Below are positions 1,666-60,300 of a stretch of 64,000 bases of DNA, piece after piece. The stretch covers positions 64,177,613 to 64,241,612 of the forward strand of contig NC_133172.1 in NCBI RefSeq assembly GCF_040802235.1, given 5' to 3'. The translations under genes and the position numbers were made by a program. This stretch comes from Manis javanica (Eukaryota > Chordata > Mammalia > Pholidota > Manidae). The notes under the pieces were generated by a model. The model worked only from the letters and a program-made list of their open reading frames with translations, was not told where the DNA came from and did not search any database. How positions within the stretch are numbered: position 1 is the first letter of the stretch; every line of letters begins with the position of its first letter.

Positions 1666-26236
<24,571 letters not shown>

Positions 26237-30660: not shown

Positions 30661-32576
<1,916 letters not shown>

Positions 32577-34598
32577 GGGCTGCTGAGAGCTTGTGATAAA
32601 TCTGCAGTGTCTGTGTGACCATTGTCCAGGCATGGGGTGGGTCTGGCAGGGGTGAGGGCGTTTTTTGGGTTGCGTTTTGCTGTCTGTACTTCAGGGTCCC
32701 TTGGATCAGCTGTCGGCTGAGCAGCTTCAGGGCCTTTCCCATCGAGGTCCCAGCCCAGTTTTTAAGCAGAGGAGTTTTAGTGTGTTAGTCTCTGGGGACC
32801 TGGACCTGGGGCCGCAGCCTTGCTTTGAATTGTGCTCAGGCCCTTCCTGGGCCTGTGCACCTCTGCCCTGCCTGGTGGCAGACCCTTCACCCAGCTTTGT
32901 AGCACAGGAAACTGGCCTCTGGCTTTCCCTAAAGTGTCCTCATACTATGCTTGCTTAGTGACTGGGACACCGCTGCCCACCCTGAGGAAGCCTGGTGTCC
33001 CTGGTGGCAGCAGGGCCACAGCAGGACTTGGCAGTGTTTTGAGCTTAATGTCTTACTGTCTGGGTCCTTGGGGAGTTGCCAGGGATGTGGAATCCCACAC
33101 CTGGACCCACTCCCACTGGGGCTGGTCTGGAGCCTGTTCCAAAAGGTCATGTAGTAGGTGATGCTGGGCCTGCTGCTGCTGCTGTTTCTGGCTTTGAGGT
33201 TTTATAAGGCTGGTCTCAGTGCTTGACATATACATGGTGCCGGTGGGTTCAAAGATCAGCTGAACTGGAGAGGTGGGAATCTGAGCCTAGGCTGTGTCCT
33301 GACAATGCCTCTAGACAGCCAGGTGGACATGGTCCACTGGGTGCTTAGGGACCTGAGTGGGTGGCCTGCCCAGGGGCAGGCCCTGCCTCTGCGGGTGCCC
33401 TGGCTGCTGTCCAGGAGCACAGGGTGTGGGGCGGGAGTGCTGGGTTCTAGCCACGGGGCTGAGGGGAGGAGACTGCCACTGGCTGCACCCCACCCAAGTG
33501 AAGGGCCTCCTATTGTCTGGAGTGAGCACTTGAGAAAGGCCTTAGGTAGGGGACCCAGGCATGGGGACTGCATGCACCCTGGTGCACCACTGGCTGCCCA
33601 GTGCTGATGGCAGCCGTGCTGTCACTGGGTAAGCTGCCTCTCGGGTCCTCCCCTTTCTGTTTGGAGGCTGAGCTCAGTGCCAGAGTGCTTGGCGAGCTTG
33701 ACGAGGCCCCGCCCCCCGAGCGGAGCGGAACCCGCCCGGACATAAGCCCGGTTCTGCTTACCTGGAGCTCAGGAACCAGGCAGGAAACATCCAAAGGCTT
33801 CGAAGGTGCTGGAACCCTGCTTGTTCTTCCAGATCTGCTTGGTCCACTGACCTGCCCCTGACCCAAAGGAGCAAGAAGCAGCTGTCCCTGCAGTTCGGGG
33901 GTGTTTGTGGATTTCTGTGTCACCCGGCACCGGCCCAGCTCCCGTTCCAGGTCCTGTTTAGGGCCGCTGAGCTGGGGGAGGCGACAAGCCCTCGCCCAGC
34001 ATCCTGAGGCTGAGGAAGGCTCCCTGCGAGGTGGAGCCTGAACCCTAAATGCACGCCAAGAAGTGACCAGGACCTTGTATTGCCCAAGGCAAGACAGAGC
34101 GAGCGCGGAAGGCGGGTGCAGGCGGGTTCTGGGGCCACGCCCCCTCAGGGCTGCTTCCCGTGTCTGCCAGCTCCAGGGCAGGGCGGTCTTTGCCTACTGG
34201 CTGTCCCCTGGCACTGGGGTGGCTGATCCTAGGGTGGCCCCAGGAGCCCCCTTGAGCGTGGGCAGAAGGGTGACTAGGAGAGGCCACTCGTGCGCGTGCC
34301 TGGCAGGGCCCGCAGGGCAGCAGGAGAAGGGACCTCGGCGCTGTCCCGGCGAGGAACCCGATCCTGCCCCAGCCTGGGCCTCTATGACCTGGGCACTGAG
34401 CAGGGGCCCCGCTATGCTGTACGCTTGTAGGCACACAGCTTAGGCAACAAAAGTGCAGCGCCCCACCAGCACGTGAGGGCCTTATTTAGCATCGCCTCCA
34501 GGCAGACATTCGCCTTCTCAGATGGTTCTTTGCGCGCGGCAGGCGCAGCTCCTGGACAGGTTCCCAAAGTGGGTGTCCGGGAGCCGGCGATGCGCGCT

Positions 34599-34617
34599 GT
34601 GGCCACCAGGGGGCGGC
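34599..34617 (+). promoter_or_regulatory. Strong CTCF-type motif
   Basis: The bases gtggccaccagggggcggc contain ccaccagggggcgg (34603-34616), a full match to the vertebrate CTCF core CCASYAGRKGGCRS. It lies 2 kb downstream of RPL13 in a small CpG-rich patch. A boundary between the housekeeping and tissue-specific genes would be plausible but is inferred. Confidence 0.65.
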
Positions 34618-35589
34618 CGGGCCCTGCCGATCTGCAGGAGGGTCCGCACCTCCCTCTCTGCCTCCCAAGATGAGCGTTGGTCTGGCAGGAATTGCAAAGA
34701 AGTTTTCTCTATTTATTACCTTTTTTTTTTGCCTTTTTTTTTTTTCAACCACACATTAGGAATTTTGTTTAATCTTCCCAGGCTGTGTCTTTGCTCTCTT
34801 GATTATTTTTAAATGATCACAGTGCGTCTGACTTTGTGTCTCTGTGAATTCTATGCGTGGGACCGTCACCTGTCCAGGAAGGGTTTTATTTTGAATCTGT
34901 ATCCTGTAGTTGTCTTGTAAAAATAGAAAATTGTGATATTTTTAAAAGGAAGAATTAAAACTTAACATTAATTTCCAGTTGCTTTGAGTTGTTGTAGTTT
35001 AGAGGGAAACTACAGCCCTTGTAGGTGGCCTGGCTTTTTTCCAATTTCTCAGCTCAGTTCAAGCCAGAGTAGGAGGTGGCCTGACACGAAGGGGTGGACA
35101 ATTCTCTTCTCTTCTTGTGTCTCACACATTATTTTTTTATTTATGGGTGCTTACACTTGATTGTTTTTATTTTATGATTTGTGAATGTTAGGATATTTTT
35201 TTCTTTTTTAAGTTATAGAAGAAAACTCTGCTCTTCATTAAAAAGAAAAAGCCCATAAGAGAAAAGCATGCAAACACGAGACAAAGGCCTCCCTTCTCCC
35301 GCTCTGCCCTCTGAGACCCTGGAGTGGTTTCTGCATCTGTCCAGAGCGGGTCTCACATTCCAGCAAAAACTCCCGGGTGTTCTCTTTTTATGGCCACACG
35401 TGGCTCGCACCGTGCGCTCTGCGCTGGGTCGTGTCAGACCACCCAGGTCTCCGTCCCCTCTGGGCCCGCCGAGGGCCCCTTTTAGGGTGGAGGCATCTCA
35501 GCTGTCCAGCCCTCGGCAGCGGAACGCTGTGGATGCCCTCGCATTTCTTTACTTGCTCATTGACCTGAGCCTCCCCACCTAGTCACCGG

Positions 35590-35740
35590 CTGCCTACCTT
35601 TTTCTGTAGCTCACCTGTTTCGTCCTTTGTCTATTTTCTATTGTGATGTTCATCATTTTCTTGAATTGTAGGGGCTCTTTGCCTATTAAGGAAATTCACC
35701 TTTTGTCCTGCTGTGACACATTGTTTCCCAGGCTGCTCTC
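35590..35740 (-). repeat. L1M relic
   Basis: Antisense L1 wording is visible (tttgtctattttctattgtg, tgaattgtaggggctctttg, cctattaaggaaattcacc). It corresponds to the interior part also found at about 45940-46020. Confidence 0.5.
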
Positions 35741-36384
35741 TTCCTTTCCGGTGTTGCTTATATCTTGGGTGTGTGGTTTGGAGAGGGGATGGGATATTCT
35801 CCCTTAGGGGACAGTGTAGTATAGCAGAAGGACCACAGCTTGGCCTCTAGTGGATATTGGTCATTCTTTTGGCTTTCCAGAATCAGAGCCGTACAGGGGC
35901 CTCTCCGTGAATTTTGTGAGGGGCAGAACCCTCCTCTCATCGGAGCCGACAGGCCCTGTTCCCCCACAGCAGGCATGGCCACGTCACCAGCCTCCACACC
36001 TGCCTTGGCCTCGGTCCCATCCTGGTGATGCAACCTTGCTGTCCTCTCTGTGGACTTTGGGGGGGTTCTCTCTCCCCAATTCCAGGAACTCTCCAGTGTC
36101 CTTGTCCTTTCTGCCCCCTCGCAGAGTCACTTCCAGTTGCTTAGAACAAGACCTGACATGCCAGGAGTGCTGGCCCAGCTCTGGCTCTGGGCCTGCCTGG
36201 CACTGGCCATCCAGCACCTTCATTGCACAGGCACTGAGTACAGCCACATGTCAGGCACCACGGGGGCATCAGGCCACAAAGAGTAGGCAGAGGCTGATGA
36301 CGAGACTGGCATGGGCAGACAGGTGGACAGGGGGCCAGAGATGGCAGGAAGTGACATGGAGGGAATTAATTAAGGGCAAACAGA

Positions 36385-36500
36385 TGAAGAGACAATGGGC
36401 ATTCATTTATGCAAGTATTTATTGAGCACCTACTGTGTCCCAGGCCGTAGGGGTACATTGAATAAAAGGAAACAAATCCTATACATCCACCCTGTTATCA
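36385..36500. repeat. L2 relic
   Basis: The phrase cattcatttatgcaagtatt followed by tattgagcacctactgtgtc is the well-known L2 3' end. Confidence 0.6.
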
Positions 36501-37004
36501 CAGAGCTTTCCTTCTGGGAACCCTCTAGACACTGGCCAAGTCCCTGTCCCCTCACTCCTGCCGTCTGGGTTCACGGCCCCCTCCCATGTTGCTGGGAAAG
36601 GAAGTTGGTAATGATAAGGAGCCAGCACAGACCCTCCCTAAATGACCCCAAGCTGCTGCTCCACGTGGCTGGGGGTCTCCATGTGGTGGGGGTCTGGACA
36701 GACACCCAGGGGTCCTGGCTGCAGACACTGGAATGTCGCCAGAGGTCGTGTGGGACAGTGCTTAGACCTGTCCCCCTGTCTCTAGCTGCGGGGTCTCAGC
36801 TGGGCCCGTTGCTGCTCTTCTGACAAATGCCCAGTAAGCTTGGTGTTTCCTGGAGAGGAGGAGGTGTGATGAGGGGCCCTCCAGCCCCTCAGGGAGGCTC
36901 TTACCAGAGGTATCATCCCCGCCCTGGGGGAGCCAGCCCCCCGGGGAGAGGCCAGCCACCACTCCTGCCTGCCTCCCTGGCCCACACCGCCGTCACCCGC
37001 CAGC

Positions 37005-37325
37005 TCCTGTGACAGAAACACCACAGACTGGGCAGTTTGTGAGCAACATTGACTGCTCAGGGTCTGGGAAGCTGGAAGTTCAAGATCAAGGGGCCGGCAG
37101 ACTTGGCCTCTGGTGACGGCTGCCTCCTGGGTCATAGACAGCATCTCCTCACGGTGTCCCACGTGTCGGGAGGGGTGAGGGAGCTCTGGGGTCTCTAAGG
37201 ACACTGGTCCCATCATGAGGCTTCACCCACGTGATGTAAGCACCTCCCAAAGGCTCACCTCCTAACACCATCACCTTGCACGTTGGGGCTCAGCATAAGA
37301 GTTTGGGGGAGACACAAACATTCCA
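37005..37325 (-). repeat. MLT1-type LTR fragment
   Basis: Reads as the antisense of a mammalian MaLR LTR: 'accacagactgggcagtttg', 'agctggaagttcaagatcaa', 'gatgtaagcacctcccaaag' and 'tttgggggagacacaaacat'. Confidence 0.6.
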
Positions 37326-37404
37326 GCTATGGCATGGAAGAAGGCCACACAATGTTGAAAATTAAAAAAGGAAAAAACAGGTTAGAAACCAGAAACACAC
37401 ACAG

Positions 37405-37520
37405 GGACCTTGCTCAGCAAACACTGCTGTGTGCCAGTCATGGTCCTAGGCCCAGGGACTCGGCTGTAAGATGGCATGGGACCGTCCCTGTGCTGGCGGC
37501 CTGAGGACACACATACAGAG
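37405..37520. repeat. L2 relic
   Basis: The order 'gtgtgccagtcatggtccta', 'ggcccagggactcggctgta' and 'atgggaccgtccctgtgctg' follows the L2 3' end consensus order. It is diverged. Confidence 0.5.
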
Positions 37521-39449
37521 GGTTGGGGGCAACTTTTGGAAATTAATACAGATTTGCATGAAAAAAAGTTTGAGGATGAACATCAAAACATTGACAGTGT
37601 TTATATCTGGATGCTAAAACTTCTAATTCTACTTGCTTAGCCACATTTTATAGTTTTTAAACAAGAAACACATGTTATTACCTCCTCTTTAACAATAATA
37701 GCAAAGTTTAGGGAAGGGGATCTCATTTCCTGCCCTGGCTGCAGGAGCTCCCACGTGCCCTTGTCCCGAGGGCCTGTGCGCACTGGCCATTGGGGAGAGC
37801 AGGTGGCCCCCACCACCTGGTGCCTCTCCCAGCCCTTTGTGAGGCCACACATCTCAGACCAGGGCAGCAGAGGATTGGGCGTTTTCCTCTGCCGATTCTC
37901 TCTGTTAGCGTGTGCAGAGCCACGGTGACGCCTCTTCTCCAAGTCAGCCCCCGAGAGAGGCCCCGGGTCGCCTTGCGGAGGAAGCCACACCATGGGAGGA
38001 AAGAGACCCCAGTGGGTCTGTTAATGTCTCTGGACCTCGTCTCTGGAAATTGCACACTCTGAATTCTCTCTCCACTTCCCCTCCTTGGTGAGAATGGCAT
38101 ATCACTTTGGCACTGTGCATGGCATGACGAAGGGCAGAACTGGCCTGAGCAGCCCAGCACAAGCTGCTGAACTCATTGGGATGGCTTGACGTCACTGCAG
38201 TCAGCATGGAGAGTGCATGGCCGGGAGGTAGAGGTCAAGCCTGCAACTAGGACTCAGGGGAAATCAGACCTCAGGGGAAAGCTCTCAAGGCCTGGTATGC
38301 TAAGGGGCCCGGAGTGGGAGGGCCTGAGCCTTGCCAGGAGCCCCAGGCAGGACAGCTGGGGGCTCTGTGTCCAACAGAGCCCAGACCCTTGCCTGGATAT
38401 CGCGTCCTTATTTCCAGGGAAGCTCAGAGAGGTCGAGGGGCTTCGCCCAGGGTTCAGGTGGGCCAGGGTCCTAGAGGAGGGGGCTCTGGGGAGGCCTGGA
38501 CCCTTGCCTGAGAGCCACGACCAGCAACCCACGCGCATGGCTGGTGGGCTGAGGACTTGGGCTGCCTCCAGCGCAGGGGAGCTGGGCTGGGCAAGACGCA
38601 GGGTCTAGGGGGCCAGGAGCAGCTCCAGACGGTCTTAGAGAAGTTTCTGGGGGTGCCTGGGCCATCTTCCCAGAGTGGGTGACAGAGGCTGGCCAGGCAG
38701 GGGGAGGAGGCACCCATGTGGCCCCGAGCCCTCTGGTCCTCAGCTGGCTGTCTCCTCTTCAGCCGGGCGCCCGGGACACGAGCCCAGCTGCCGGAGAGCA
38801 GCCCGCTCAGCCTGGCTGCGAGGACAGCATTTCTGTCTCTGCAGACCTGGCACATGGTGCTCAAATCCAGGCCATTCCAGGATGCAGTCTGACCACCCCA
38901 CCACTGGGAACACCATCCGCCCCTGGGCCTCCTTGGCTGAGTCCCAAAGCCCAGCTAGGCTGGGGAGCAAACTTGACCTGTCACTGGCAGGCCCTCTGAC
39001 CTCAAGATCTTCTTCTGGAGTCCTGGAGGCCAAGGCTGAACCCTGAGCAGCCTGAAAGCGCAGAACCTGGCATGCCCGGGACTCGGTCTCTGCCCCCCTG
39101 GCCCTCTGGCCCCCCAGCTAAACCCTCTTATCCTCCTGCCATGGATTTTGGCCAGGCCTGTGCCCTACTCTCTTAAGCAGAAATCGGCAAAGAGAATGGG
39201 CTGGAGGTGGTTTCTGCTCCATCAACACCTCTCCCACACTGCTGCTGCTGCCGGGACAAGGCGGTCCGGGCGGTGGGGCTGAGGCTCCGGGCAGCGTCAG
39301 GCCCTTTCCAAGGGTCTCAGGCCTCTTCCCACCCAGCTGTGGGACCCATCCAGAAAGGGGTTCCCAGGCCCAGCCTGGTCAGACTCTGACCCCCTAGCCC
39401 GAGACCCCAAGGACAGCCAGGGGCTAACTGCTCTCGGATGACAAGTTTC

Positions 39450-39505
39450 TCTCCAGCAAGGTTCCTGGCACACAGCAGGTGCCCCCTAAAAGCTTGTTAA
39501 TTGAG
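39450..39505 (+). repeat. MIR 3' end relic
   Basis: The words 'gttcctggcacacagcaggt' and 'ccctaaaagcttgttaattg' match the MIR 3' end. Confidence 0.45.
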
Positions 39506-42500
39506 GTGGTTGGCCACCAAAAGTGCCCAGAGATCTGTGGAGGGGCCCCGGGACTTGGTGCACACATCAGCGCCGATCCACAGACACATGTACAGATACA
39601 TATACAGACACACATGTGTCTGGATACCCATGTAAACTCGAGACCACAAAAGGGACCTGCTGCTCTCAGCCACCCTCGTGGGGTCTGCATGGCCATCAGG
39701 GGAGCTGAGGTTAGTGGCCACGGGTGTGGACACGGACTTCAAGTTGCAGTGCTGTGACCTTGAGCAGGTCCCTGAGCTCAGCCCCCTGGGGGGTGTTGAG
39801 AGCCAGCATGCAGGGAGTGCTTGTTTCCACAGCCAGCGACCCCCTATTCCTGGTAGGAGAGCCCACAAGGGAAGCCTGGGGACCCGGCCCTCCCTCCACG
39901 TGCTGCAGAGCATTCCCTTCTGCCCAGCCCTGAGCCACTCCCCGCCAACTGGGATGCTCAGGGGCTGAGAGCTCGACAGCCTGGGTGGGTGGGTGGGGAC
40001 ACTGCCCTGTGTCTGGGCTCAGCTCACTTCGCTGTGGCCGGGGCGAGGCAAGCGTCCACAAGCCTCAGCGCTGTCATATCCTCTTTGCTGGCCAGCAAAG
40101 GGGGGATTCTCCCAGTAAGTCACTGGTCCTCAGCAGCTGAGGGGCAGTTGCCGCTGACCCCATTCACAGACCAGGGCCTGCCACCTGAGCGCTGCCTCCT
40201 GGGGATGGGGGCCGCTGGCAGTGTGGTGTTCCTGTGCCACCTCACTGGCCTGAAGGGGGAGGCAGCCCCGAGGGGCCTGGGAGGTGGGGGGCATGCCCGG
40301 CCTTGGGGCAAGACCTGTGGGGAGGGTGTGGCTCCGGCGCAGGGACTGTAGAATCACCAGGGCTGGTGGGCGAACCCAGGCGGCTGGCATCTCCAGTCTT
40401 GCTGCAGCACCCCTGCCACCCCCTAGGCAGCCTGGGGGTCCAGGGCAGGGCTGTGGGAAGGGCCTCGCTACTCAGCCGGTTCTCTCCTGCACCCCAGGTG
40501 AGGGGGCCTGGTGACCCTCTCTTGGAGTCTGACCTGGGGCCCTGGGCACTGCTCCGGACGAGCTCCTTAAAGTGCTTACTCATCCAGCCCAGCCATGGGC
40601 GGGCCTGATGGGGTCAAGTGTCTGCAGCCCAGATGCCCCCCCTGCCTTTTTAAAGTGTGGTGACTGTTTAATACCATCCTTGACTCATTCTCATCAAGCT
40701 GAGCGGCTGAGGCCGCGGACGGTGAAGCTGTCCACCCCGGCCTTCGGTGGCTCCTGCCTCGGCCCTGAAGAGTGACTCAGAGAACCTGCTGGTCTCTGCC
40801 AAAGCGGGCATGCGTTTGAGCTCTTAGAGAGAACCCCAAGCAGAAGAAATAACACTCTTTTCTCTAGGTCTTTTTGAGAAACTGGACCAAAATTACAAAG
40901 AATTCAAGTCTCCTACTGAGCAACAGTGTTTTCTGTGTTACTGTCCACAGAACTCCCAGCCCCACCTGTGTGCTGACCTGGGGTACCACCGTCTGGAGCT
41001 CAGAGTTTTCCTGTGCAACCCCAGTCACCCTGCTTTTTGCCACCTTTCTTGGCAAGAGCATTTGGGGGTCCTTCCCCTTTCTGTGCCTTTCTGCATCCCT
41101 GACTCTAAGCAGCTCCCCGTCCTTCCCCCTTCAAAGTACCAGTCGCCTCGCACAGACCAGCGTGAGGCTCAGTTCACGCTGGATTCTTCCCCCTGTGGTC
41201 ACAGTCACTGCTGATTAAAATCTGTCCACACTCTAGTGTCTGGCTGAGTCTGTCTCTGAATGTGCTTGGCCAGCATACTGCGGCTGGACATCTGCCCCTG
41301 CTTACTGGGGATTCAATCCAGCTGTTTCCATTTTAAGTGTGCCTGGAGGCAGGAAACACAGCCAACCCACATCTCATTTTTCTTGAATTGACCCTCCTGC
41401 AGAGACTGAGCAAGGGAATGTCAGCCTGCATGCTGTGTGGGGGCCTCAGGGCCCATGACCATCCCTCCACGACCAGCCAGCAGCCCTCCAGGCCCCTCTG
41501 CCCCCGGGGCTGTGCTCAGGCCTTGATCACAGTCCTCACCTCCAAAGGGAGAGACAGGCAGGCGACCGTCACCTGGGTCCTGAGGGGGCAGAATCAAGGA
41601 AGATAAGGGGTCAAATCTGACAGCACCTCCTGGGAACAAAAGGCAGAGAAGCAAACGGACCATTCCTGGAGGAAAAGGGGCCATGGAGCCCACCCCACCT
41701 CGTAGCCCCACAGCGGTCCTTCCTGGGGTGCCACGGGCAGCCGGCCCTTCGCTCTTGGGGAGAGGGGCCCCCCCTCGGTCTGCACCTCACCACGACCCTG
41801 TGCGCCCTCGTGTCTGCCCCTGCTCCAGGGTGCAGCTGAGGGGGCCCCAAGTGCCTCCAGCTCCTCTGCCAGCTCACAGTGGAGGCCTGTGCTGCAGCCC
41901 CTGGCCAGGGTGGACGCCCCTCCTGGGGCCCTCAGCCTCCTTGTCTGCCACCCACAACACTGACACCCACTGCCCCTGCCCATCCGGTGCCTCTCTCCTC
42001 CACCCCAACAGTGGGCACAACTTTGCCATGAAGGGACAGAAATTCAGCTGCCACACCTGCGCCCCTGCTAGGCGAGACCACACAGGCAGCCACACAGCAC
42101 CCTTGAGTGCCTGGGCTCCCCCGGCCAAGCATGCTCTCCCTGCATGGCTCTGGAGCTGGGCCCACACAGGCCACGCGGTGTGTCCACGGCTTCACCGTGC
42201 CACCCAGAGGAGCTGTCCCCTCCCCTCTATGCCTCCTGGTTGTGCTGCAGACCCCAGCAGAAGCATGTCTGAGGAGGAGGGTGGTGAGGAAGACCTAATT
42301 GTATCTTCCAAACCTGCTGGGGGCTTCTTCTGGCATGTGGCCCCTAGTTCCAGCCATGCCAGGGGAAGGCCCTCTGTCCCTCTGCCATGAGGCATGGCCA
42401 TGTCTGCATGGCTGCCACGTGCTCCCCTCATCCTGGAGTGACCACAGAACAGAGCCCTCTTAGGCACCCACAGCCTGAAAGAGGCCACAGCCCTGAGCGG

Positions 42501-43499
42501 GGCTGTTTGCCGTCTGAGCGCTCGGTGCCCCTGTGCTCCCTGGGTCTGTCACGCCCTCACCAGGGGGGTGGCTTCAGGTGGGCCGTCTGGCATCTGTGAG
42601 CCCATCGGTAACTCGGGACACTAATTAAACCCATAGCTGTGGAGTGGCGGCCCCCAAATGGTATGTCCCTTGGAGTCTGTGAATATGACCTCATTTGGAA
42701 AAACGCAGATGTAAGCAAGCTAAGGATCTGGGGATGCGGCAGTCTGGCGCCAGGACCGGCTGTGGGCCTGGGGGGCTGAGGGTGGTAGGGGGGCTCTCAG
42801 GGTGACAGGCGCCAATCGCGCCAGGCCATGGCCGCGGAGACCTCCGCTCCACTGACCTGCAGGGCAGCCCCGCAGCGGAGCCCACATCCAAGCTCACACT
42901 GCCTCACGCGGCCGGGACCTTTCCACAGCTCTTCCCTCCAGAGGCCCAGACGGGCACCTGGGTCTGGTCCTTGTCCACCAAATTTGCACAGAGCAGTCTG
43001 ACCCTCCAGACCCCAACCCCAGCCCCTCAGCACTTCCCAGGAAGCATCCACCTGTGACTCCAACCTCGCCAGCAGCCCGAATTTTCACTCATTCACACGG
43101 CGCATAATCAGAAACTCCCCTTGGGCAGCCCCATGTGGCCCCCACCATGACCACAGCTGCCACGGCGCGCTTGACCCGTCCCAGACACCACATGCGGACT
43201 CGTGCAGAATGGCAAGCTCTCGTGTCTGGCTTCCTTCTGCCCACACACCTTGTATGATTTTTGTCCACATTAATACGTGTGGTGGCAGCTCTGTCTTGTT
43301 CTGGGTCCTGCTCCACATGTGGAGAAACCACGGCTGGCCACCTGCTTGCTAGTGGATGGACATCAGGGCTGGTCCTACGGCTGCTGTAAGGGCTGGACTG
43401 AGCTGCAGCTCACCTACTGCCAGCGATGGACTGTTTGTGCCCCATGTTCAGATGTGGAGGCACTAACCCCAATGTGAGGGTGGCAGGAGGGACAGCCTC

Positions 43500-43760
43500 T
43501 GTGCCAGTCGGGGACAAGGTCCTAGGGGAAATCAGGTTAACTTCTGGAGCTGCTATAGCATGCACATGGCCTCTGGCCCAGTAATTACACATGAAATTTA
43601 CCCTCTGGGTGCGTTAGCCAGGGTGCAGGGCGACAAGTATCCTCTCGTGGCAGCGGTGGCACCATCCAGTGGGGACGTGGCTAATGTACCACCACCTCCA
43701 TATGATGGAATCTGGCATGGCTGCTGAAAATGCAGAGGCTGGCTTCACCGTGGTGGTGTG
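43500..43760 (+). repeat. L1M relic
   Basis: Sense L1 tail wording survives: ggcccagtaattacacatg, 'gtggcaccatccagtgggga' and 'ccatatgatggaatctggca'. Strongly diverged. Confidence 0.45.
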
Positions 43761-44089
43761 CATGCCAGATGGGTGTGCATATGTGCCCAGGGGACCTTGA
43801 CTGGGGCTGGGAGTAGAAACAGCCCCATGCAGTTAATGTTCCTGGGGGGAAGTCACCCCAGGCTTAGCACCCATTTTATTGTGCTCATAAACCTGTGGGC
43901 CAGGAGTGGGGGGCAAGGCCCAGGGGACATGGAGTCCCTGCTCCACGTGATCTGGACCTTGGTGGGGGTGTCAGGCAGAGCGCTCACATGAGCCCCGCCG
44001 CCTCCCAGGGTGGCGGCTCAGAGCACCACAGGCAAGCGTGTCAGCGGACCACGCAGATGCTCTCTTAGCTAAGCTGTCTCACAGCTCTG

Positions 44090-44450
44090 GCGGCTGTAAC
44101 AGACACCACAGACTGGGCACTTGACAGAAATTTACTTCTTATGGTTGGAGGCTGGAAGTCCAAGATCGGCGGCCGGCAGGCTCAGGGGCCGGCAAGGCTT
44201 GCCTTCCATGAGTGGCCGCCTGCTCGCTGTGTGCTCACATGGCCGAGGGAGACCATCTCTCTCGTCTCTTCTTGGGACCGTACTGATCTCATCGTGAGGG
44301 CTCCATGCTCAAGACCTGATTGCCCAGAGGGGCAGGAACTTCAGGGAGACAGAACTGACCAGTCCCCAGCACGGACCAGCCTGGCGATCACACAGGGTCC
44401 CTTCTACCACATCCTATTGTCTACAAGCAAGTCACAAACAGGTCGAGGGC
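44090..44450 (-). repeat. MLT1-type LTR fragment
   Basis: Antisense MaLR LTR wording: 'ggcggctgtaacagacacca', cagactgggcacttgacag, 'ggaggctggaagtccaagat' and 'gctgtgtgctcacatggccg'. Same orientation as the copy at 37.0 kb. Confidence 0.65.
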
Positions 44451-44699
44451 CATGAACCCCACCTCTCAAGGGAAAGATGTGTGGCTCCTGTGGGGTCTGA
44501 GATGTGGCTGCAGCCCTTGGGGAAGACACCCCCTGCCTGGCACCCACAGGCCTAGTGCCAGGCACTAGCCAGGCACAGGTGTCAGACTATGAGCCCGGGA
44601 AGCTCCAAAGTGCGGTAAGGATCTGGGAGTTGTGAACAGGAGGATCATGGGGTTCCAGGGCCTATTTCCTGGCTTGGGCAGGAGCTCCGGCACAGTGAG

Positions 44700-44952
44700 T
44701 CATTGATCTACGTGTATGCTTTTTATAACAGCTTTCTTGAGCTGCAATTTATATATTACAGAATTCACCCCTTTAGTGTGCACAATTCAGTGGTTCTTAG
44801 TAGAGTCAGAGTCGTGCAATCATCACTGTATTTAACTTTGAATGTTTTCATCATCCTAACAGAAACCCTGGACTCCTTAGCAGTCACTCCGCACCCCCAT
44901 CCTGGCCCTTGGTACCCGGCAATCTGCTTTCTGCCTCCATGGATTTACCTGC
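44700..44952 (-). repeat. Older L1M fragment, left half (split by a later insertion)
   Basis: Antisense old L1 tail ('tgcaatttatatattacaga', 'cccctttagtgtgcacaatt', gttttcatcatcctaacag). It continues at 46901 on the far side of a younger L1. Confidence 0.65.
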
Positions 44953-46900
44953 TCTGGACATTTATTTATTCATTTTTTTTGCTTATGACTCCCAACTTCT
45001 TTTTTTTAATTAAGGCATCATGGATATACAATCTTCTGAAGCTTTCACATGAACATTGTGGTTTCAATATCCACCCATATTATCAAATCCTCACTCCCCC
45101 CATTGTAGTCACTGTCCGTCAGCGTAGTAAGATTTATAGTCATTACCTGTCTTCTCTGTGCTGTACTCCCTTCCCATGGCCCCCCTACATTATGTGTTAT
45201 GAAATCATAACGCCCCCTCAATCCCCTTCTCCCTTTGCCACCCCTTCCCCCTTTGGTGACCACCAGTCCCTTCTTGGAGTCTGTGATTTTGCTGCTGTTT
45301 TGCTCCTTCAGTTTTGCTTCGTTGTTATACTCCACAAATGAGGGAAATCATTTGGTACTTGTCTTTCTCCGCCTGGCTTATTTCACTGAGCATAATACCC
45401 TCTAGCTCCATCCATGTTGTTGCAAATGGTAAGATTTGTTTTCTTATGGCTGAATAATATTCCACTATGTATACGTACCACATCTTCTTTATCCATTCAT
45501 CTACTGATGGACACTTAGGTTGCCTCCATGTCTTGGCTGTTGTAAATAGTGCTGCGATAAACATAGGGGTGCATCTGTCTTTTTGAATCTGGGATCTTGT
45601 CTTCTTTAGGTAACTTCCTAGAAGTGGAATTTCTGGGTCAAATGGTATCTCTGTTTTTAGTTTTTTGAGGAACCTCCATATTGCTTTCCACAACAGTTAA
45701 ACGAACTTACATTTCTATTAACGGTCTAGGAGGGCTCCCCTTTCTCTGCATCCTCGCCAGCATTTGTTGTACCTTGTCTTTTGGATGGTGGCGATCCTAA
45801 CTGGTGTGAGGTGGTATCTCACTATGGTTTGAATTTGCATTTCCCTATAATTAGTGATGTGGAGAATCTTTTCATGTGCCTGTTGGCCATCTGAATTTCT
45901 TCTTTGGAGAATTGTCTGTTCATACCCTCCACTCATTTTTTAATTGGGTTATTTGCTTTTTGGGTGTTGAGGCGTGTGAGCTCTTAATATATTTTGAATG
46001 TTAACCCCTTATTGGATATGTTGTTTACAAATATGTTCTCCCACACTGTAGGATGACTTTTTGTTCTACTGGTGGTGTCCTTTGCTGTACAGAAGAAGCT
46101 TTTTAGTTTGATGTAGTCCTACTTGTTCATTTTTGCTTTTGTTTCCCTTTCCCAAGGAGATATGTTCATGAAAAAGTTGCTCAAGTTTATATATATTTTT
46201 TGCCTATGTTTTCTTCCAAGAATTTTATGGTTTCATGACTTATATTCAGGTCTCTGTTCCATTTCAAGTTTACTTTTGTGTATGGGGTTAGATAGTAATC
46301 TAGTTTTATTCTCTTACATGCAGCTGTCCAGTTTTGCCAACACCAGTTGTTGAAGAGGCTGTCATTTCCCTGTTGTATGTCCATGGCTCCTTTATCGTAT
46401 ATTAATTGACCATATATGCTTGGGTTTATATCTGGGCTCTCTATTCTGTTCCATTAATCTATGGGTCTGTTCTTGTGCCAGTACCAAATTATCTTGATTA
46501 CTGTGGCTTTGTAGTAGAGCTTGAAATCATGGAGTGTAATCCCCCCTGCTTTATTCTTCCTTCTCAGGATTCCTTTGGCTATTCAAGGTCTTTTGTGGTT
46601 CCATATGAATTTTAGAACTATTTGTTCTCATTTGTTGAAGAATGCTATTGGTATTTTGATAGGGATTGCATTGAATGAATCTGTAGATTGCTTTAGGCAG
46701 GATGGCCATTTTGACAATATTAATTCTTCCTAGCCATGAACATGGGATAGATTTACATTTTTTAGTGTCTTCTTTAATTTCTCCCACGAGTGTCTTGTAG
46801 TTTTCAAAGTATAGGTTTCATCTCCTTAGGTTTATTCCTAGGTAGTTTTTTTTTTTTGATGCAATTGTAAATGGAGGGGTTTTCCTTGTTCTGGACATTT
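44953..46900 (-). mobile_element. 5'-truncated L1 (ORF2 end plus 3' UTR) inserted into an older L1M, with target-site duplication
   Basis: The 11-bp word tctggacattt occurs at 44953-44963 and again at 46890-46900, bracketing the element as a target-site duplication. T-rich runs at the left end are the antisense of the poly(A) tail. The minus strand shows the end of the L1 reverse-transcriptase protein with many breaks (about 46187-46787, including a [20 protein letters not shown] stretch) and then the L1 3' UTR. It is only a fragment of about 1.9 kb and cannot be active. Confidence 0.85.
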
Positions 46901-50200: not shown

Positions 50201-50690
50201 TGAGTCCTTGGGCCCCTGCCTCCCTCCAAAAGCCTCACCGAGGGGACCGGACACTGGGGTGCTGTGCGCCCCACCCACTGGAGGATCGCTTCGTGGGGTC
50301 GCCCTGATGGACTTCACCCATTTGGACAGTCCTGCTCCCTCCACCCAACCTGAGATGTTTTCTCTTTGGGGACTTAGGAAGACAAACACATCCCCCAGGG
50401 CCACGAATGTGAAAGCAAGGGGGAGGCACCTCGTGCCCCCTGTCTGCATCCCCTTGCCCTGTGTCCCCTGTCCAATCTCCTGCTGGGAGGCCGACCCCAG
50501 CGTGGGGCGGGGAGCAGCCAGCAGTGTAGGGTGAGTTCCCCCACACCTTTGCCATGGGGGTGCTCAGGGCTGGGTTGGGGACCCCGAGGGTGCTGAGAAT
50601 CTGCAGTGTGCGGAGGGAGAAAGGCCTACTTGTATGCTGGGGGACCTCTTTCTGTTTTAATTAGTTTGATTTTCTGATTAATGAAATACT
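47230..50690. other. RPL13-DPEP1 interval between the two L1s, no coding exon seen
   Basis: GC-rich unique sequence. An open frame around 49560-49655 has no domain I recognise and no clear splice context, so it is not called. Confidence 0.45.
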
Positions 50691-50734
50691 AACAATTTCA
50701 AATGGTACAAAAAGGAATAGCTTAAAAGTAGAAA

Positions 50735-52230
50735 TTTACAGCACAATCCCTCAAAATACCAAAGGCATTCTTCACAGAAAAGCAACTAATCCTACGATTC
50801 ATGTGGAACCACCAAAGATCCCGAATAGTCAAAGCCATCTTGAGAAAGAACAAAGCTGGGGCATCACGCTCCCTGGTTTCAAACTGTACTACAAAGCTAC
50901 AGTGATCCAAACAGTATGGTACTGGCACAAAACCAGACCCACAGATCAACGGGGCAGAACAGAGAGCCCAGATACAAACCCACACATACAGGGTCAATCA
51001 ACATGTGCCAAAGGAGGCAAGAGCATACAATGGGGAAAAGACAGTCTCTTCAATAAATGGTGCTGGGAAAACTGGACAGCTACATGCAAAAGAATGAAAC
51101 TGGACCCATCTCACACCTTACAGAAAAATGAGTTCAAAATGGATTAAAGACCTAAATATAAGACCTGGAACTATAAAACTCCTAGAAGGAAACACAGGCA
51201 GTAAACTTTTGAACATCAGCCTTAGTAATTTTTTTCTGGATATGTTCCCTCAGATAAGGAACCCAAAAGCAAAAATAAACAAGTGGGGCTACATCAAACT
51301 AACAAACTTCCTCATTCCTCACAACTCAACACCAAAAACAAACAATCCAATTAAAAAATGGGCAGAGGACCTGAACATTTTTCCAAAGAAGACATACGCA
51401 TGGTCACCAGACACATGAGAAGATGCCCCACATCACTCATCATCAGGGGAGCTCAGACCAAAACCGCAGCCCAGGCGAGTCCCGCCGGTCAGAGGGGCCG
51501 ATGTCAACAGGCAGGAAATGACAAGCGCTGGCAAGGATGTGGAGAAGGAGGGACCTCGTGCACTGCTGGTGGGACCGCACATGGGTGGAGCCACTGTGGA
51601 AAGCAGTGTGGAGGCTTCTCAAAAAACTGAAAATAGAAATACCATACAATCCAGTAATTCCACTTCTGGGCATCTACCTGAAGAAAAAAAGTTGTTACTG
51701 CTGAAAGATACATGCACCCCCATCTTTATAGAGGCATTATTTACAATAGCCAGGATATGGAAGCGACCTAAGTGTCCATCAGTAGGTGAATGGATAAAGA
51801 TGTGGTATGTATACACAGTGGAATATTACCGAGTCATAAATAAAAAGGAAATCTTGCCATTTGCGACATGGACAGACCTAGAAGGCATTGTGCTGAGTAA
51901 AATAAGCCAGGTGGAAAAAGACAAATACCATAAGGTTCCAGTTATATGTGGAATCTGAAAAACGAAACAAACAAAACAGAAATAGACTCATAAACACAAA
52001 GAATGGAAGGTCGGTTACCCTGGGTGGGGCGATGGGTGAAAAGGTGAAGGGGATAAAGAGCTATCAACTCTAGATTATAAAACAGCGCAGTCACAGCAGT
52101 GGAAGCACAGCCTGGGGAAGGTGCAACGCTGCTGTCTTTGTGTGCTGGCAGATGGTGGCCACACTCGCCATGGCAACCAGTTAGTGACATGTATAACTGA
52201 TGAGTCACTAAGTTAACTGGACAAAAAACC
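50735..52230 (+). mobile_element. 5'-truncated L1 (ORF2 end plus 3' UTR), sense orientation
   Basis: Starts with the last part of L1 ORF2 in broken frames (for example [20 protein letters not shown], about 50875). It continues through the L1 3' UTR (caccaaaaacaaacaatcc, ggaagcgacctaagtgtcc, tatgtggaatctgaaaaacg) to about 52230. It is homologous to the 44.96-46.89 kb copy but in the opposite orientation. Multiple frame breaks; inactive. Confidence 0.85.
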
Positions 52231-52239
52231 CCAGTAGTA

Positions 52240-54100
52240 ACCTCTCTCCCCCAGCCCTGGTCCTTCTCCCGAAGGTCACTAGTCCCCCCGCTTTGCCCTC
52301 CCTGGGAGCAGGGCCACGGTGTAGGAGGCCCCAGGCCTGCCTCCTCTCTATGTGGGGCGCACAGAGTTCCTACTTCCGCCAAAGCCCCTGCTCACCCCAG
52401 CTCCTCTGTGAGCTCTGAGGTGGGAAAGCCCCTGCTGGGCCCCAGCATGGGTATTTGAACCCCTCACAACTGGGGGCTGCCCTTGCTCAAAATCCGGTGA
52501 CTGTGGCTCAGGCTGGAGCGCAGGGTCCCATAGCGGGACAGAGGGTGAGCCTGGGCAGGGACTGCGCCCCACTCTGTGCTCTCCCCGGCCTCAGAACTTT
52601 GAAACCAGTTGGTGGAGGCTTGACTCAAACAGGCCGGGACCCCAGGCAGAACTTCCCCTGATTTCGAAAGTCCCTGTGGCTGTGCCAGAGGACATTCCAA
52701 TCTGAGATGGCTTTTGCTGCTTGTGTAGCTGGGAATGTGGGGGGGCCACATCCCCTGCCCATTGCACATGTGGAGACCAGGGGTCCCAGCCTCTGAGCCA
52801 GGCTAGGGCCGACCCACTCCTAGATGGGGAGCGAGCACTCCCCACCCCTGGACCCAGGTCACTTTGCACCCCAGGGAAGCAGAGCGGTGGGCAGAGACTG
52901 AGAGAAACCGTGTGTGGGGGAACCCTGGGTCCACAGGTGACAGGCTGACAGCTGCCTGAGGCTGTGGGCTCGGTGGGAGGGGCGCAGATGCCCCCATGAG
53001 CCCCACGCTGACTTCCTCCTCATCTCTTCACTCCACCCTACCACCGATGCCAACACCCTGCCCAAGGTAGCCCCCATGCACTGTCCCGGGGACCCTGACT
53101 GCCTGTCGCCCAGCACAGGCCCCACCTAGGCCCAGCTGTGGGACCACGAGTGCACGCAGGCCCCACGACGTGGCCTGTGGTCTGCAGAACGACAGCCAGC
53201 TGCCATGTGTAAGGCATTAACCCTCCCTCAGCACATCGCTAAGGGCCCTGGGGGAGTGTTTTTAAGAGGTGGCTTTTTTTGTGAGAGGGAAGCTGGTTGG
53301 AGAGTTCAGGGGAGGAATGGAAAGTGAGAGAAACAGAGACAACCCTGCAGGCCTCCAGACGAGGCAGGACTGGCCTCCTGCTCAGGGCGTCTTGGGCTCC
53401 CCGACTCCTCTCACCGCTGGAAAGCCGCCTAATGGGGAGTGCCCACTAGTGCACCCATAGGTGGGCACCACTGTTTGCCCAGTGAGGCCACCGAGCTCCA
53501 CCTGGGGCAGACAGACAAGTTCATCAGTACCAGGCAGGTGAGTACACGGTGGGCCTGGCTGGCTGGGTTCAGGGCTTCTCAGGTGGTGGGTGGAGGGCAA
53601 GATGAAACGAGGGCATCAGTGTCATGCAGAGGGGGCAGAGGGTTGCCTCTGGGGCGGGGAGGATGGGACGGGGCCTCAGCAGAGCCTCTGGGGGTCCCTG
53701 GGGGATGACTCCTGATGCCGTGTGCGGGCAGGCCACGGGGCCCAGAGCGGTGGCGCAGCTGGCAGGGCCATGCAGTCATCCGGGGGAGAGTGGGGGCCCC
53801 AGGTGGACAGAGGTGTTGCTCATGAGGACCCTGGGGAGCAAGCCTTCTGGAGGGCAGAGGGCAGGGTGGTGGCCCCATGCTGGGCATAACAGTGGAGGGT
53901 CCTGAGGCCTCAGGGGCCTGGGAGGACAGCTGCGGGCACCTGTGGGCCCTGCGCCTTCCTGAGACGCAGCGCTGTGCCTGGTTCCCTCCTCCCCCACCCT
54001 CCCAGTGACCCCCCCACCGGCTGGCTATGGGGGGTTGTCACAGGGGCTGAGGCAGAGCTACGGGCACCGAGGTGGGCCCTGAGGACCGGGCAGGCACAAT
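52240..54100. other. RPL13-DPEP1 interval, no gene seen
   Basis: GC-rich unique sequence with no supported exon or recognisable repeat. Confidence 0.45.
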
Positions 54101-54129
54101 GACACAGGAACAAGGTCCCCACCCTGTGC

Positions 54130-54680
54130 TGAGTGTGCATGTGATGGGGTGTGTACGCTTGTGCTTTGTGTACATGGGCGGACAGACTTGGATGGGTCTG
54201 CATGTAGTCATGTCTATGTGCTTATGTTTGTGTATCTCTGGGCACACATCTGGGTGTCTGAGTGTATGGCCCTCATATGTGAAAAGCACTCGTGTGTTTC
54301 TGAGCATGTACGCTTGTCTGCACAGGCAGGTGTGGGATGTGTGCGAGTATTCTCTTTTGTGAGGTTTGTGTGCATGTATGTGCAAGTGTGTGGGCCATGG
54401 GTAGGTGTGCCTACATATGTCTGCTTGTGCAGATGGGGCACCATCTAGACATGCATGTGGATGGAGTCTGCCATGGTGGTGCGGATGGGGAATGGGCGCA
54501 CTTGTGTGCATGTGATCTGTGTGTGCGTCTGTGTGACCATACACACGTATGTGGGGTATGTCAGCCTGTCTTTCCTGTGTGCATGTGGGGGGTGTTTCTG
54601 CATATGCTCCTGTGGCCCAGGTAGACGTGTGGTTAGCTGTGTGTATATCTCACACACCATAGCATGTGTGTTTGTGAAGG
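54130..54680 (+). repeat. Degenerate TG-rich tract
   Basis: About 550 bp made largely of imperfect TGTG, GTGTGT and CATGTG words (for example tgtgcatgtatgtgcaagtg). It looks like an old, expanded and mutated (TG)n microsatellite. The open frames over it are by-products of the composition. Confidence 0.7.
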
Positions 54681-54689
54681 ACGCTGGGT

Positions 54690-56640
54690 GGTGCCTTTTG
54701 GAGCTCCGTGCTGCTATGGACAATCTCCAGGCTCGGTCTCCAGTGCCCCTCACCTGCTGTTGGCCCAGCCTACATGAGCTTGAGTGCAGCTGAAGCCCTG
54801 GTGGGAGGGGCCTCTTTGCACCCGAGGTCACAATGCAGTTTTGGTAGAATAAACCTTGGTGAACTCCAGCTGAAAATTTATTCCCTGGGGCTTCCATGAT
54901 GGGACCTGAGGATTCCAGGCCTGCTGGTGGCCCTCTGGCCTGCCTGTCATCAGATTTTTAAGAAGGTTCTGCCATCCAGCTGGGCCTTAGCTGTTCCCTG
55001 GACAGGGAGAGCAATTTGCTTTGACTCTTCATGGCTGCCTCTCTGCGGCTCTGGTAGAGATTTAACAGCACTGTTTAGTTTTTGTGTATTTTCACTTTGC
55101 TCCATTTGTTTATGGCAAATGATGCTAATTTTCTAACTAATACTATTCTCCTTATTTAAATAAAAAGGATACAATTTAAGGTAAACCATTAAGTGGCTCC
55201 TCTGAGAGCAGAGCTTGAGGCAAGGGTTGAGTGCAGAGAGCATCTTTGGGAAGTGACTACAGGGCTGGAAATAAAGAAAGTCTGAGACAGGGCATCATCG
55301 AGTGGTCGGAGGAGGTCCTCCCAGGGACCAGCTGGGAAAAGCGTTTGTCCACCGGCTTATATTCTCTTGGTGGAGGACCTCCCACACAAACCTGTGGGAG
55401 GCTCCCCGGCATCTGTGTGAGACTGAGAGGTGAGTCAGCCACAAGAAGTTTCTTTACTGAAAGGAAACAACTGTGAGGTGCAGAGAAGGCGACGGTCCCC
55501 GGAAGGAGCTCCCGGAGGCGGCAGGGGGGCTGCCTCACACTCCCTGAGGCCAGGGCCGCCCGCCCCACGCCTCAGTTCTCTGTAGCTGCGGGCTCACAGT
55601 GATCGTCAGTTACTGCGCGTGTTTCCTTTGGGCTGGGAAGCCCTCGCCAGGGTCCAGTGGGGCCAGCTGGTCTTTGGCCCACAGCATCAGCACCTCCACT
55701 GGGAGACCCAGAGATGGGGCTGGGCTCCCCTGAGGGCAGAGCCGGGCTGTCTTCTAGGGCAGAGCCAGGCTGCACCGAGAGCAGCTCCGACCACTTCCCA
55801 GAGGGGCGCTCCGGGAGGCCGAGTCAGGAGGGAGCATGGCAGCCCCGTGCCCGCTGCCCGCTAGGAGGCACTCCCCAGGCTACTGAACCCTCCCTGTAAT
55901 GGAAGCCTGTGGGATGCAGCCATCTGGGAAATGCCCTCTGCCATAGCCAGGAGTCAGAGCCCAAGGCTGTGCTGGTTCCAAAGTGTGCCACGGGGCTGTG
56001 CCATGCACCAGCAGCCAGAGCAAGCGGAGGAGGGCTCCCAGCCGGGCTACATCTGCCCCACCACCAGGTCAGAAGGTCGGACAGGCACGGGCACTTCCCA
56101 CCCTGCGCATCAGGTGAGGAATCCAGGACACCCCCAACGCCAGGGGCAGCTCCCACCAGCAGTTCCTGGGAATGAGATATTACACAGGAAGGGTGGCCAT
56201 GAAGCAGAGAACGAGCCCCACTGGGAATATTTGTGGAGTAGAAACCAGACAGGGGCTCAGCTCAAACACTGCAGGCGAGATGCTGGAAGTCAGAAAGATG
56301 GACGAACGGGGCTTTGTGGGAGCTGGAGGCAGAGTTCACGCCCACTGCCCACTCAGGAACGCATGAGCCTGGGAGCCACAGCCAGATGAAGGACACCAGG
56401 GTCCCTGGGAAATATTTCTTATGGGTTCAGAGTTGCTGTTAAAAGTGCTCATGTTGAGGTCGGGCACTGCGCCCCCACCCCTTGCTCACTTGGCCTGATG
56501 CCAGGAAGACGGCCTGCTGCTTGACCATTAAACGTGAGCCGATGGAGGCCGCCCGCTGCTCCAAGGAAGCCTGCAGACGCAGCAGAGGATGGGAAAAGTG
56601 AGTCTGGAGGGAAGAGATTATCGCCCGGTAAACAGGAAAA
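54690..56640. other. RPL13-DPEP1 interval, no gene seen
   Basis: Mixed GC-rich sequence with an AT-rich patch near 55070-55190. No exon is supported. Confidence 0.45.
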
Positions 56641-58970
56641 CAAATCCTCTAACTGATATCAGACAATACCAGTTCTATGCCAAGACAGGGTGCCGGGGGG
56701 AATCACTAAGGAAAACATGAGAAACCACTCCTGGGAGATTAAATATGTAATTCCTGGCAGAAAACATCAAATAAACATACTGGAAGTAAAAATTTAGGAA
56801 ATCTAGCACACAGAACAAACACATAGAAAACCTAAAGAGAAACACCTGGGAGACAAAAAAGATGAAGCCAGGTGGGTCCAGCATCTGATTAAGAGCAGGT
56901 GCCAGGAAAAGCGGACAGAGCAGGCGGGGCAGGGGCCTGGAGCACAGCCCTGGACCAAAGGCAGAGAGAGACCAACGGCCCGTGAACCTGAACGCTGAGC
57001 TCCCTGAGTGGAAAGCAGAGCCTCAGACTGAGGCCCGTCGCTGAGAGACGGTGGCCCTGAGGACAGAGGCGGCTCCGAGGGATCACGCAGGAATCCTCAG
57101 GGAAGTGGCTTATGACCCTCAAGTGCGTGTCCGGGACAGTGGGGTTGGCTATGAGGGCAGAACAGAGACATGAGTGGACACTCAAGGACTCAGAATTTAT
57201 TTCCCTCACACCCACTCGGGGGAGGGAGCTGAGGTCCAGCTCTGACGAAATAGAACACACAGCAGACGGAGGAACACCGCAGAGGAGACTGTAGGGTCGA
57301 AGCCGCGTGAGGTGCGAGGCTCAGGCTTAGAAGGCTGTGGAAATGTGATCACAGTCCCAGCGGAAGGGACTTGCAGCAGGCAGGTTCCAGGGCTGCTGAC
57401 AGCGGCTGGGTGCACAGGCCTGGACGAAGCACACCCCGTGGGGCTGCCTGACACCTTCCGTTTTCCAGAGATGCTGAGGCTGAGGCCTGGCAGGCAATCA
57501 CACACAGGCTGGCCCCAAGCCCACTCAGCCCTACCGCCTCGCCACCCCACAGAGAACGGGACTGGTTGGGGGGTCTCCACACAGGGCTGCTTCTGGCGTG
57601 AACCGCAGGCTGCTCGCTGTCCGGGCCTGGGAACTCGACTGTGCGGACAAGGGTGTGCCGTGTGGTCTTGGCTCTCTCCTCGAGGACCCTCAAGTAGCAC
57701 CTGAGGAAGCGGCCCCCAGCCAGGCCCTGGGAACGCTGTACTCTGTCAGCTTGCCGGCCCCTCTGCGCCCAAGTTAGGGAACAATGTGAGTGTCGGGGTG
57801 AGACCAGTGCCCTGGAGGACCGTGTGGGGCTGGGCTTCCTTTCCAAGGAGAAGTCAGGATACACGCCCCATCTTTACTTGAACATTTTGTATTTTGTTAA
57901 TCATGGACTTTTTTTTTTTTTTTGCAGATTTTTGCTTGAGATAGTGCATTAAAAATTATCTCAGTGAGGTTTTGGTGACCCCCCCACCTTGAAATTAGCA
58001 ACTGAGGGAGGGCACCCCACCCAGCCCTGCGCTGCCTGAAGGTCAAGGGTTGGACTGTGAGCCCACAGGAGAGCTCAGGGGAGCAGCAGACCCGTCAGGG
58101 GACCAAGGCCGGCAGGCGGTTCCAACGGGGGGGCTTTGGGGGGAATATGAGGAGTGATGGAGACCCTCAGGAAGCCGGGAAGGGTGTATCTGCCACCCTG
58201 CACTCCGGGCTGAGGGCTCTTCTTTTAGGCTTGCAAACTAATGAGGTATTACAAAGGGATGGGCAGAGGATTTAAAATATTTTGAACAACTAAAGAAATG
58301 AATTCTAAATTTGGAAATGGAGAGGTCAAATGAAGTGTCAGGCAGGTTTCAAAAGACAAATGTGTGGACTTGTCTTGGGAGGACGAGGGGCCGCAGTGGG
58401 AGGCACACACTTAAAACGGCATCAGGCCAGCGTGCTGGAGGCTGCCAGAGGGCATCCAGGCGCATTCCCGTGGGCGAGGATGCTGCCTGCCCGGGAAACG
58501 TCAAGGAAGTACTGCAGACAAGTGAGAAATGCGTCAGAATAAACATGTCAAGACAGGAAAAATAAAGAGAAACAATCTAGGAAAACAGGCAGTGATGTCA
58601 TTGAATGAATGCCTGGGCTCTGTGTGTTGAAAGGGAAGCACAGATTCGCGACAACCCTTAGAAATATGAGGGTAAATGCCAGCAAAACAGAGATACACAG
58701 AAGGACACGAGCTGTGAAGCTGGGGACTTGGAATGACCTGAGGAAGCCCATGGAAGCAAGAAAGAACAGAGGGCTGGGACGCGCGGCAGCCCCGGAAATG
58801 ACCTGAGACAAGCCCGGAGCAGGGCCCTGTGGTACCGTCACGCTGCCCTAAACGATCAGACAAAGATGCTCAGGTGAGCTTAAGAAATAAATTACAATTA
58901 CATGCTCTGTCAAGAAAACCCAACACTGAAACAAAAAGGATAAGAAACAAGTTGAAAATAAACAGAATAG
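56640..58970 (+). repeat. Probable HAL1/L1M relic
   Basis: A-rich on the + strand, with the order of a half-L1 element: 'tggaagtaaaaatttaggaa', 'aacacctgggagacaaaaaa', 'caggtgggtccagcatctga', 'ccaggaaaagcggacagagc', 'ctcaaggactcagaatttat', cctcacacccactcggggg, and later 'gaaatatgagggtaaatgcc'. GC-rich stretches in between may be drift or other insertions. Assigned from recalled consensus wording. Confidence 0.5.
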
Positions 58971-60300
58971 CATGGGCTGGGCAGATGCTGTAAGCAGAGC
59001 AGGGCACGACCAGGAGCAGTTCTGGAGGAACTGGCCCTCCTGGAAAGGCGTGTCCTCTGCGGTTGTGCCACTGGCGAGGCAGGCCAAGGGTGCGTGGTGG
59101 GCAGAGGGTGCGTGTCCCCCCAGTGTAGACCCCTGCCTCCAGCCAGGTGGGCTGCCTGGTGTGGACATGCTGTGTCCAGGCCGGCCTGGGACCAATCCCA
59201 GTCCACCAGGGGGGCCTCTTGTGCACAGATGAGGTCTGACCCAATGGCCTGGCATCAAGGACACCCCTGCAGGGTTGGGGGCTCCTGGCCAAGGGACATG
59301 GGGCTGGGAGGAAAGTCCTCGGTGGGGTCTGGGTGCAGAGGCCTGGGCCCCAGGACTCAGCTAATAGTGGCAGGCCAGGGGCTGGGACTTAGGCTGGAGG
59401 AAGGGACTGGGCTAGTCCCTGATGGGGGTGAGGGTGCAAGGGAGGACACCTACCTGTGAACGGGGTTCCGCGGGCAGTTCTGCAGCTGGTCTGACGCTCT
59501 CCAGGGGCAGAGGTGTCAGAGGGCCCACCTGTCCCAGCAAGACCATTCAGCTGCCCCTCCAGGGCCTGCCCAGCTCACCCACCCCTCTTCCTGCCTCCTT
59601 CCCAGCGGGCCTGGTTCCGGTCTGGTCCTGTCTGGCTGCTCTCTGGAGCCCTGGAAGCTGTCCCAGCCGTGGAATCAGAATCCACTGGTACCTGGTCAGT
59701 TCTTGGAAGCTCTCAGGAGACTTGTGTTCAGCAAAGCTGGCAAAGAGCCCAGCTCCAAGGAAGCATGGCACTCAGGCTCCTGCCCCCAAACCCCAAAGTC
59801 CAACCTGCTCCATCAGAAGCCTGCAGGGTGTGTGTCACTGTGATGCGAAGGGGCTGCAGGCCAGGAACCAGGGTGCGGGTGGGGCACCCCCTTGGGGTTG
59901 CACTCCATCTTTTCTGGTGAGCGCTGCAAAACCTTTTACAGGCAAAAGAGGTCCGTTGCAGGAGCATGCTGCTGGAGGCTTTAATTCTGCTGGCAGATCT
60001 CAGACAGGCTCCAGGTCCTGGGGCAGTGAAGGCAGGAGAGCTACCAGCACCGGCCGACCACCCGCCCTGGGCCACCCCTCTGAGCCTGTCACCCTTTCAT
60101 CTGGCCTCTGGGCCCTCTCTGGGGTCAGCAGCCTCTTACTATGCCTCTGCTCAGCCCGACAGCAACACCCAGACCGCGGGTCTAGCACCTTCTGTACCCA
60201 CCCTCCCTGGGAATGCTGGTTACTGATTGAACACCAGGAGCCTTAAATGGGAACTCCTGGCAGGGATCACCTGGACCAAAGGCTTCTACTCTCTCTCCAG
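58970..60300. other. DPEP1 upstream region / intron
   Basis: No coding exon is seen. Human DPEP1 has non-coding 5' exons upstream of its start codon. Any here cannot be recognised from sequence alone. Confidence 0.4.

Follow-up and report, generated by a model that had tools for sequence, protein, structure and literature searches.

Gene Order Around the Expected Position of CPNE7

The analyzed window is a stretch of 64,000 nt (C17:64177613-64241612) that contains no N; some 313 kb separate it from the end of C17, a contig of 64.55 Mb. Feature coordinates below are window positions unless a contig is given. The order of genes on C17 is SPG7, RPL13, a gap-free interval of 27.8 kb, DPEP1, and CHMP1A. 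On the left side, matches to peptidase exons (Pfam Peptidase_M41, plus strand) are found at 21452-21556, 23028-23213, and 23740-23919 (overall 21452-23919, C17:64199064-64201531), which we take to be SPG7 from their position. The same Pfam model also yields a mirror pair of matches on another contig, at C2:105070757-105071838 (minus strand) and C2:105592846-105595853 (plus strand), with near-equal scores and about 0.52 Mb apart, which points to either a segmental duplication in inverted orientation or an error of assembly.

The left neighbor of the interval, RPL13 (30670-32575, plus strand, end approximate), is identified by tblastn with an RPL13 probe and by Pfam Ribosomal_L13e, matching at 30670-30774 (E = 1.5e-9), while its last exon (32417-32572) has no match in the Pfam scan. 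An RPL13 intron carries the C/D-box snoRNA snoMBII-202 (31045-31128, plus strand; Rfam RF00324, 76.9 bits), which is the sole Rfam match in the window at the gathering threshold, none being seen in the interval. On the right side, the first (60392-60495) and second (63717-63848) coding exons of DPEP1, both on the plus strand, match the DPEP1 probe in tblastn with 80 and 89% identity, respectively; the joined peptide of these two exons matches renal dipeptidase 1itq (E = 3.5e-32), and further DPEP1 exons follow as M19 matches just beyond the window end. CHMP1A, found with its own probe in the window plus the next 10 kb, is located after DPEP1 on the minus strand. Both flanks, SPG7 and RPL13 on one side and DPEP1 and CHMP1A on the other, are present in the expected order, with no assembly gap (0 N) between them.

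The distance from the end of RPL13 (approximately 32575) to the DPEP1 coding start (60392) amounts to 27,792 bases, and the interval 32600-60391 is the place where CPNE7 is expected. Inside it, two mutually inverted L1-like fragments (44700-46900, minus strand, and 50640-52240, plus strand; recognized through inverted repeats I1-I4, label and limits set by eye) flank a stretch of 3.7 kb.

Published gene lists for horse (PMC7341496) and cattle (PMC7668599) give SPG7, RPL13, CPNE7, DPEP1, and CHMP1A; a further cattle list (PMC11663911) has the same order, with LOC112442426 between RPL13 and CPNE7. On chicken chromosome 11, CPNE7 is listed at 18983791-18989285 and DPEP1 at 18993512-18997373 (PMC6339939). 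CPNE7 is thus placed at the corresponding site in these relatives (in chicken, beside DPEP1), according to the lists; the adjacency of CPNE7 and DPEP1, being shared by horse, cattle, and chicken, is therefore old.

Absence of CPNE7 From the Interval

The search for CPNE7 used a reconstructed human sequence rather than a database record, as did the searches for its neighbors. In tblastn against the window, its best match has E = 0.38, that is, noise level, and the top match in the interval is equaled or bettered in 28 of 100 shuffles. The Pfam Copine model gives 27 matches in the genome (45/45 candidates scored), and the CPNE7 probe gives 49 (70 of 82 candidates scored); none of either set falls in the window. 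Stop-free frames that reach 150 codons number 25 in the interval; the Pfam scan of 20 of these gives nothing above the cut-off and no copine or C2 domain, and two matches below the cut-off look like chance.

The controls behave as expected. The RPL13, DPEP1, and CHMP1A probes all recover their genes in the window plus the next 10 kb. The CPNE7 probe itself gives a clear signal on all eight copine loci tested in the same genome (best E = 1e-60, on a retrocopy on C7), and on the CPNE6 locus it produces 13 collinear matches with 50-80% identity, chosen by script with E up to 1. Hence, profile, tblastn, and open reading frame scans detect no orthologous CPNE7 exon in the interval with the controls working; a marginal chain statistic, considered below, points in the other direction.

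The initial annotation had placed about 28 kb between RPL13 and the first DPEP1 coding exon, had recognized no copine coding stretch there, and had taken CPNE7 as apparently missing; it had also suggested that the interval may be much shorter than the human one. The measured distance agrees with this estimate, the gap-free interval together with tblastn, Pfam, and the in-locus controls confirms the absence, and the tblastn check that it proposed, here made with the human CPNE7 probe, returns no CPNE7 exon match.

The gap-free interval lacks CPNE7, and the remainder of this one assembly yields no orthologue. Very probably, CPNE7 has been lost from the pangolin lineage, the gene body being physically deleted and both neighbors left in place. 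By inference, the deletion is genuine and would have become fixed on the pangolin line, with RPL13 and DPEP1 staying where they were.

Deletion, Assembly Artefact, or Decay in Place

The position of the locus near a contig end (some 313 kb away) is compatible with CPNE7 still being present in the animal, provided that a GC-rich subtelomeric stretch had been dropped or misjoined during assembly in a way that left the sequence seamless. However, the window is free of N, and the neighbors are present and in order; other copine genes, including the compact CPNE6, are assembled; and no orphan CPNE7 exons are found across the 63 contigs. When 32700-34600, 38000-40600, and 52250-54100 of the interval are searched against the assembly, each returns only itself; hence, no second contig with another version of the locus was found. 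A second haplotype contig was considered as a candidate and, judging from these three pieces, none was found. With this evidence, we regard an assembly artefact as unlikely.

A gene can also fade in place, so that point mutations leave only unrecognizable remnants. A weak collinear chain between CPNE7 and the plus strand of the interval, consisting of 12 members with the last one ending less than 500 bases from the DPEP1 start codon, has a score of 220. The maximum over 100 DNA shuffles is 200 on the plus strand and 244 on the minus strand, and over 100 shuffled proteins, 207 and 213, respectively. When the two L1-like repeats are masked, the chain scores 200.5, a value reached by two of 300 shuffled proteins, and this marginal statistic would fit decay. 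However, taken one by one, the members of the chain are all unconvincing, and two of them fall in L1-like sequence. Neither the CPNE6 probe nor the probe from the CPNE8-like retrocopy yields a clear excess of chain score in the interval (reached by 8 of 60 and 32 of 60 shuffles, respectively), these probes being shorter, more distant, and weaker than the CPNE7 probe. Given the poor members, the overlap with L1-like sequence, and the lack of a clear excess with paralogue probes, the chain is most likely noise, and it was set aside as a candidate remnant of CPNE7.

The visibility of a decayed gene was assessed with synthetic CPNE7 copies carrying 3% indels and planted in shuffled interval DNA. 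At 10, 20, and 30% substitution, at least one match with E < 0.01 is obtained in 10 of 10 runs each; at 40%, the copies are found in six runs and missed in four of ten, which leaves some room for strong decay, the more so as the simulation is optimistic, its starting sequence being the probe itself. The genome also provides natural relics, as ENAM (E = 4.2e-140) and AMBN (clearly recognized) are both retained with stop codons. The inactivation of these genes in pangolins is dated in PMC12906968 to about 73 Mya for ENAM and about 54 Mya for AMBN, and both are still readily recognized. Readable relics of such age, taken together with the simulation, therefore favor removal of CPNE7 over slow decay in place, which we consider distinctly improbable.

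Copine Genes in the Rest of the Genome

The genome search covered 2,559,957,944 bases in 63 contigs of a single assembly, and was conducted exon by exon with E up to 0.01. All 49 matches of the CPNE7 probe fall on ten other copine loci, read as CPNE1-6, CPNE8, CPNE9, and two retrocopies. These are CPNE1 (C5:21.5M), CPNE2 (C17:38.4M), CPNE3 (C2:172.3M), CPNE4 (C15:36.7-37.06M), CPNE5 (C3:30.4M), CPNE6 (C8:73.78M), CPNE8 (C15:5.4M), and CPNE9 (C16:53.5M), and two copies in which matches cross exon borders. Of the latter, the one at C7:53.9M (53.91M) is CPNE8-like and has long open stretches, and the one at C6:68.0M (68.01M) is CPNE1-like and broken. The locus names, including the assignment of the retrocopies as CPNE8-like and CPNE1-like, are probable and come partly from characteristic motifs; the name of CPNE6 is backed by a tail-to-tail Maf bZIP neighbor, read as NRL.

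The copies nearest to the CPNE7 probe are CPNE4 and CPNE6: among five loci, they are the closest in one vWA exon (81 and 78% identity, respectively), and, unlike CPNE7, both are present in the pangolin genome. The CPNE4 locus has nine matches with 48-84% identity spread over 322 kb, including the top identity overall (84%, query positions 384-438). Human probes for the neighboring genes provide a yardstick for orthologues, with 85-95% identity for CHMP1A and 80-89% for the DPEP1 exons in the window; further DPEP1 matches have 57-85%, the lowest of them crossing an intron. An orthologue of CPNE7 should be closer overall than the CPNE4 locus is, by comparison with CHMP1A and DPEP1; the CPNE4 locus does not look like one.

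None of the 49 matches (70 of 82 candidates scored) is orthologue-like; relocation of CPNE7 elsewhere in the genome is therefore unsupported, was rejected within this assembly, where all matches belong to other copine loci, and appears very improbable. The initial annotation had proposed a whole-assembly search and had left lineage-specific loss, relocation, and an assembly join side by side. Loss stands as the best reading; relocation does not hold, and for a join, there is no gap, and the three pieces searched revealed no second contig.

Possible Link to Tooth Loss

Pangolins are toothless, and therefore the role of CPNE7 in dentine may have been free to go. Other dental genes are broken in the same animal, as AMBN and ENAM carry stops; their matches lie close together at C5:117.29-117.32M and contain several stop codons. 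Broken dental genes in pangolins have been reported (PMC12906968). In mouse, according to PMC10928576, dental epithelium is where Cpne7 is induced, and the gene promotes the differentiation of odontoblasts. In the same source, the tooth germs of Cpne7-null mice are normal at E18, and their weight is not significantly different until 12 weeks; at 6 months, they show thin coronal dentine and disorganized odontoblasts. The conditioned medium of null dental epithelium is reported to be no different from that of the normal one, and compensation by other factors is suggested (PMC10928576).

Tooth loss as a cause of the CPNE7 loss is a plausible hypothesis, in which the absence of teeth would have helped the loss to be tolerated, given that CPNE7 supports odontoblasts in mouse; other roles of CPNE7 may be covered by the remaining paralogues CPNE4 and CPNE6. 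This link is weakened by two observations, the normal tooth germs of Cpne7-null mice and the retention of the gene in chicken, which is toothless and has an annotated CPNE7 (PMC6339939); since toothless chickens keep it, CPNE7 probably does not act in teeth alone. The loss may instead stem from its redundancy with CPNE4 and CPNE6, or from a chance deletion. A deletion of CPNE7 in pangolins within dental regression, in spite of the gene being pleiotropic and kept by toothless birds, is a tentative and somewhat doubtful proposition.

Known dental losses offer partial parallels. According to PMC12906968, DSPP (whole-gene deletion, Asian pangolins) and KLK4 (Manis) are, like CPNE7, tooth-related genes gone from conserved synteny; however, these are dentine-matrix and enamel genes, respectively, whereas CPNE7 encodes a C2-vWA protein kept by toothless chickens. 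The dental genes ENAM and AMBN resemble CPNE7 in being inactivated in the same animal, but they are pseudogenes that persist as recognizable broken exons, whereas CPNE7 has no recognizable exon.

Relation to Published Gene Losses

Pangolin CPNE7 would be a case of lineage-specific gene loss. It is not among the ten dental genes that PMC12906968 surveyed. In the open PMC literature, nothing pairs CPNE7 with pangolin; copine combined with pangolin yields only unrelated work; nothing is found on copine-7 with gene loss and mammal; and for CPNE7 with loss, none of the matches listed, judging by titles and the starts of abstracts, concerns evolutionary loss. Likewise, CPNE7 is absent among the matches listed for toothless-type terms and among those listed for pseudogene terms.

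If the loss is real, pangolins are natural CPNE7 nulls, and whether its main role in mammals is dental, as suggested by the work on mouse odontoblasts, or it is redundant with CPNE4 and CPNE6 could be judged by comparing CPNE7 in mammals that lack teeth or enamel, such as anteaters and baleen whales, with its state in toothed outgroups; it would also follow that dental surveys limited to matrix genes can miss losses of signaling-type genes. If, further, the deletion did occur within dental regression, it would be a dental-linked loss outside the usual set of enamel and dentine matrix genes, and the pangolin would represent a natural knock-out in which the non-dental roles of CPNE7 are dispensable in a mammal.

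A separate observation, which marks the genome as that of a pangolin, concerns ACE2, located on C19 at 141.8 Mb, where nine exon matches were translated. Six of the nine exon pieces, joined into one peptide, were compared with the PDB chain 7dhx_A ("pangolin ACE2") and have no differing residue in the aligned exon stretches; from the next best chain, they are set apart by many differences.
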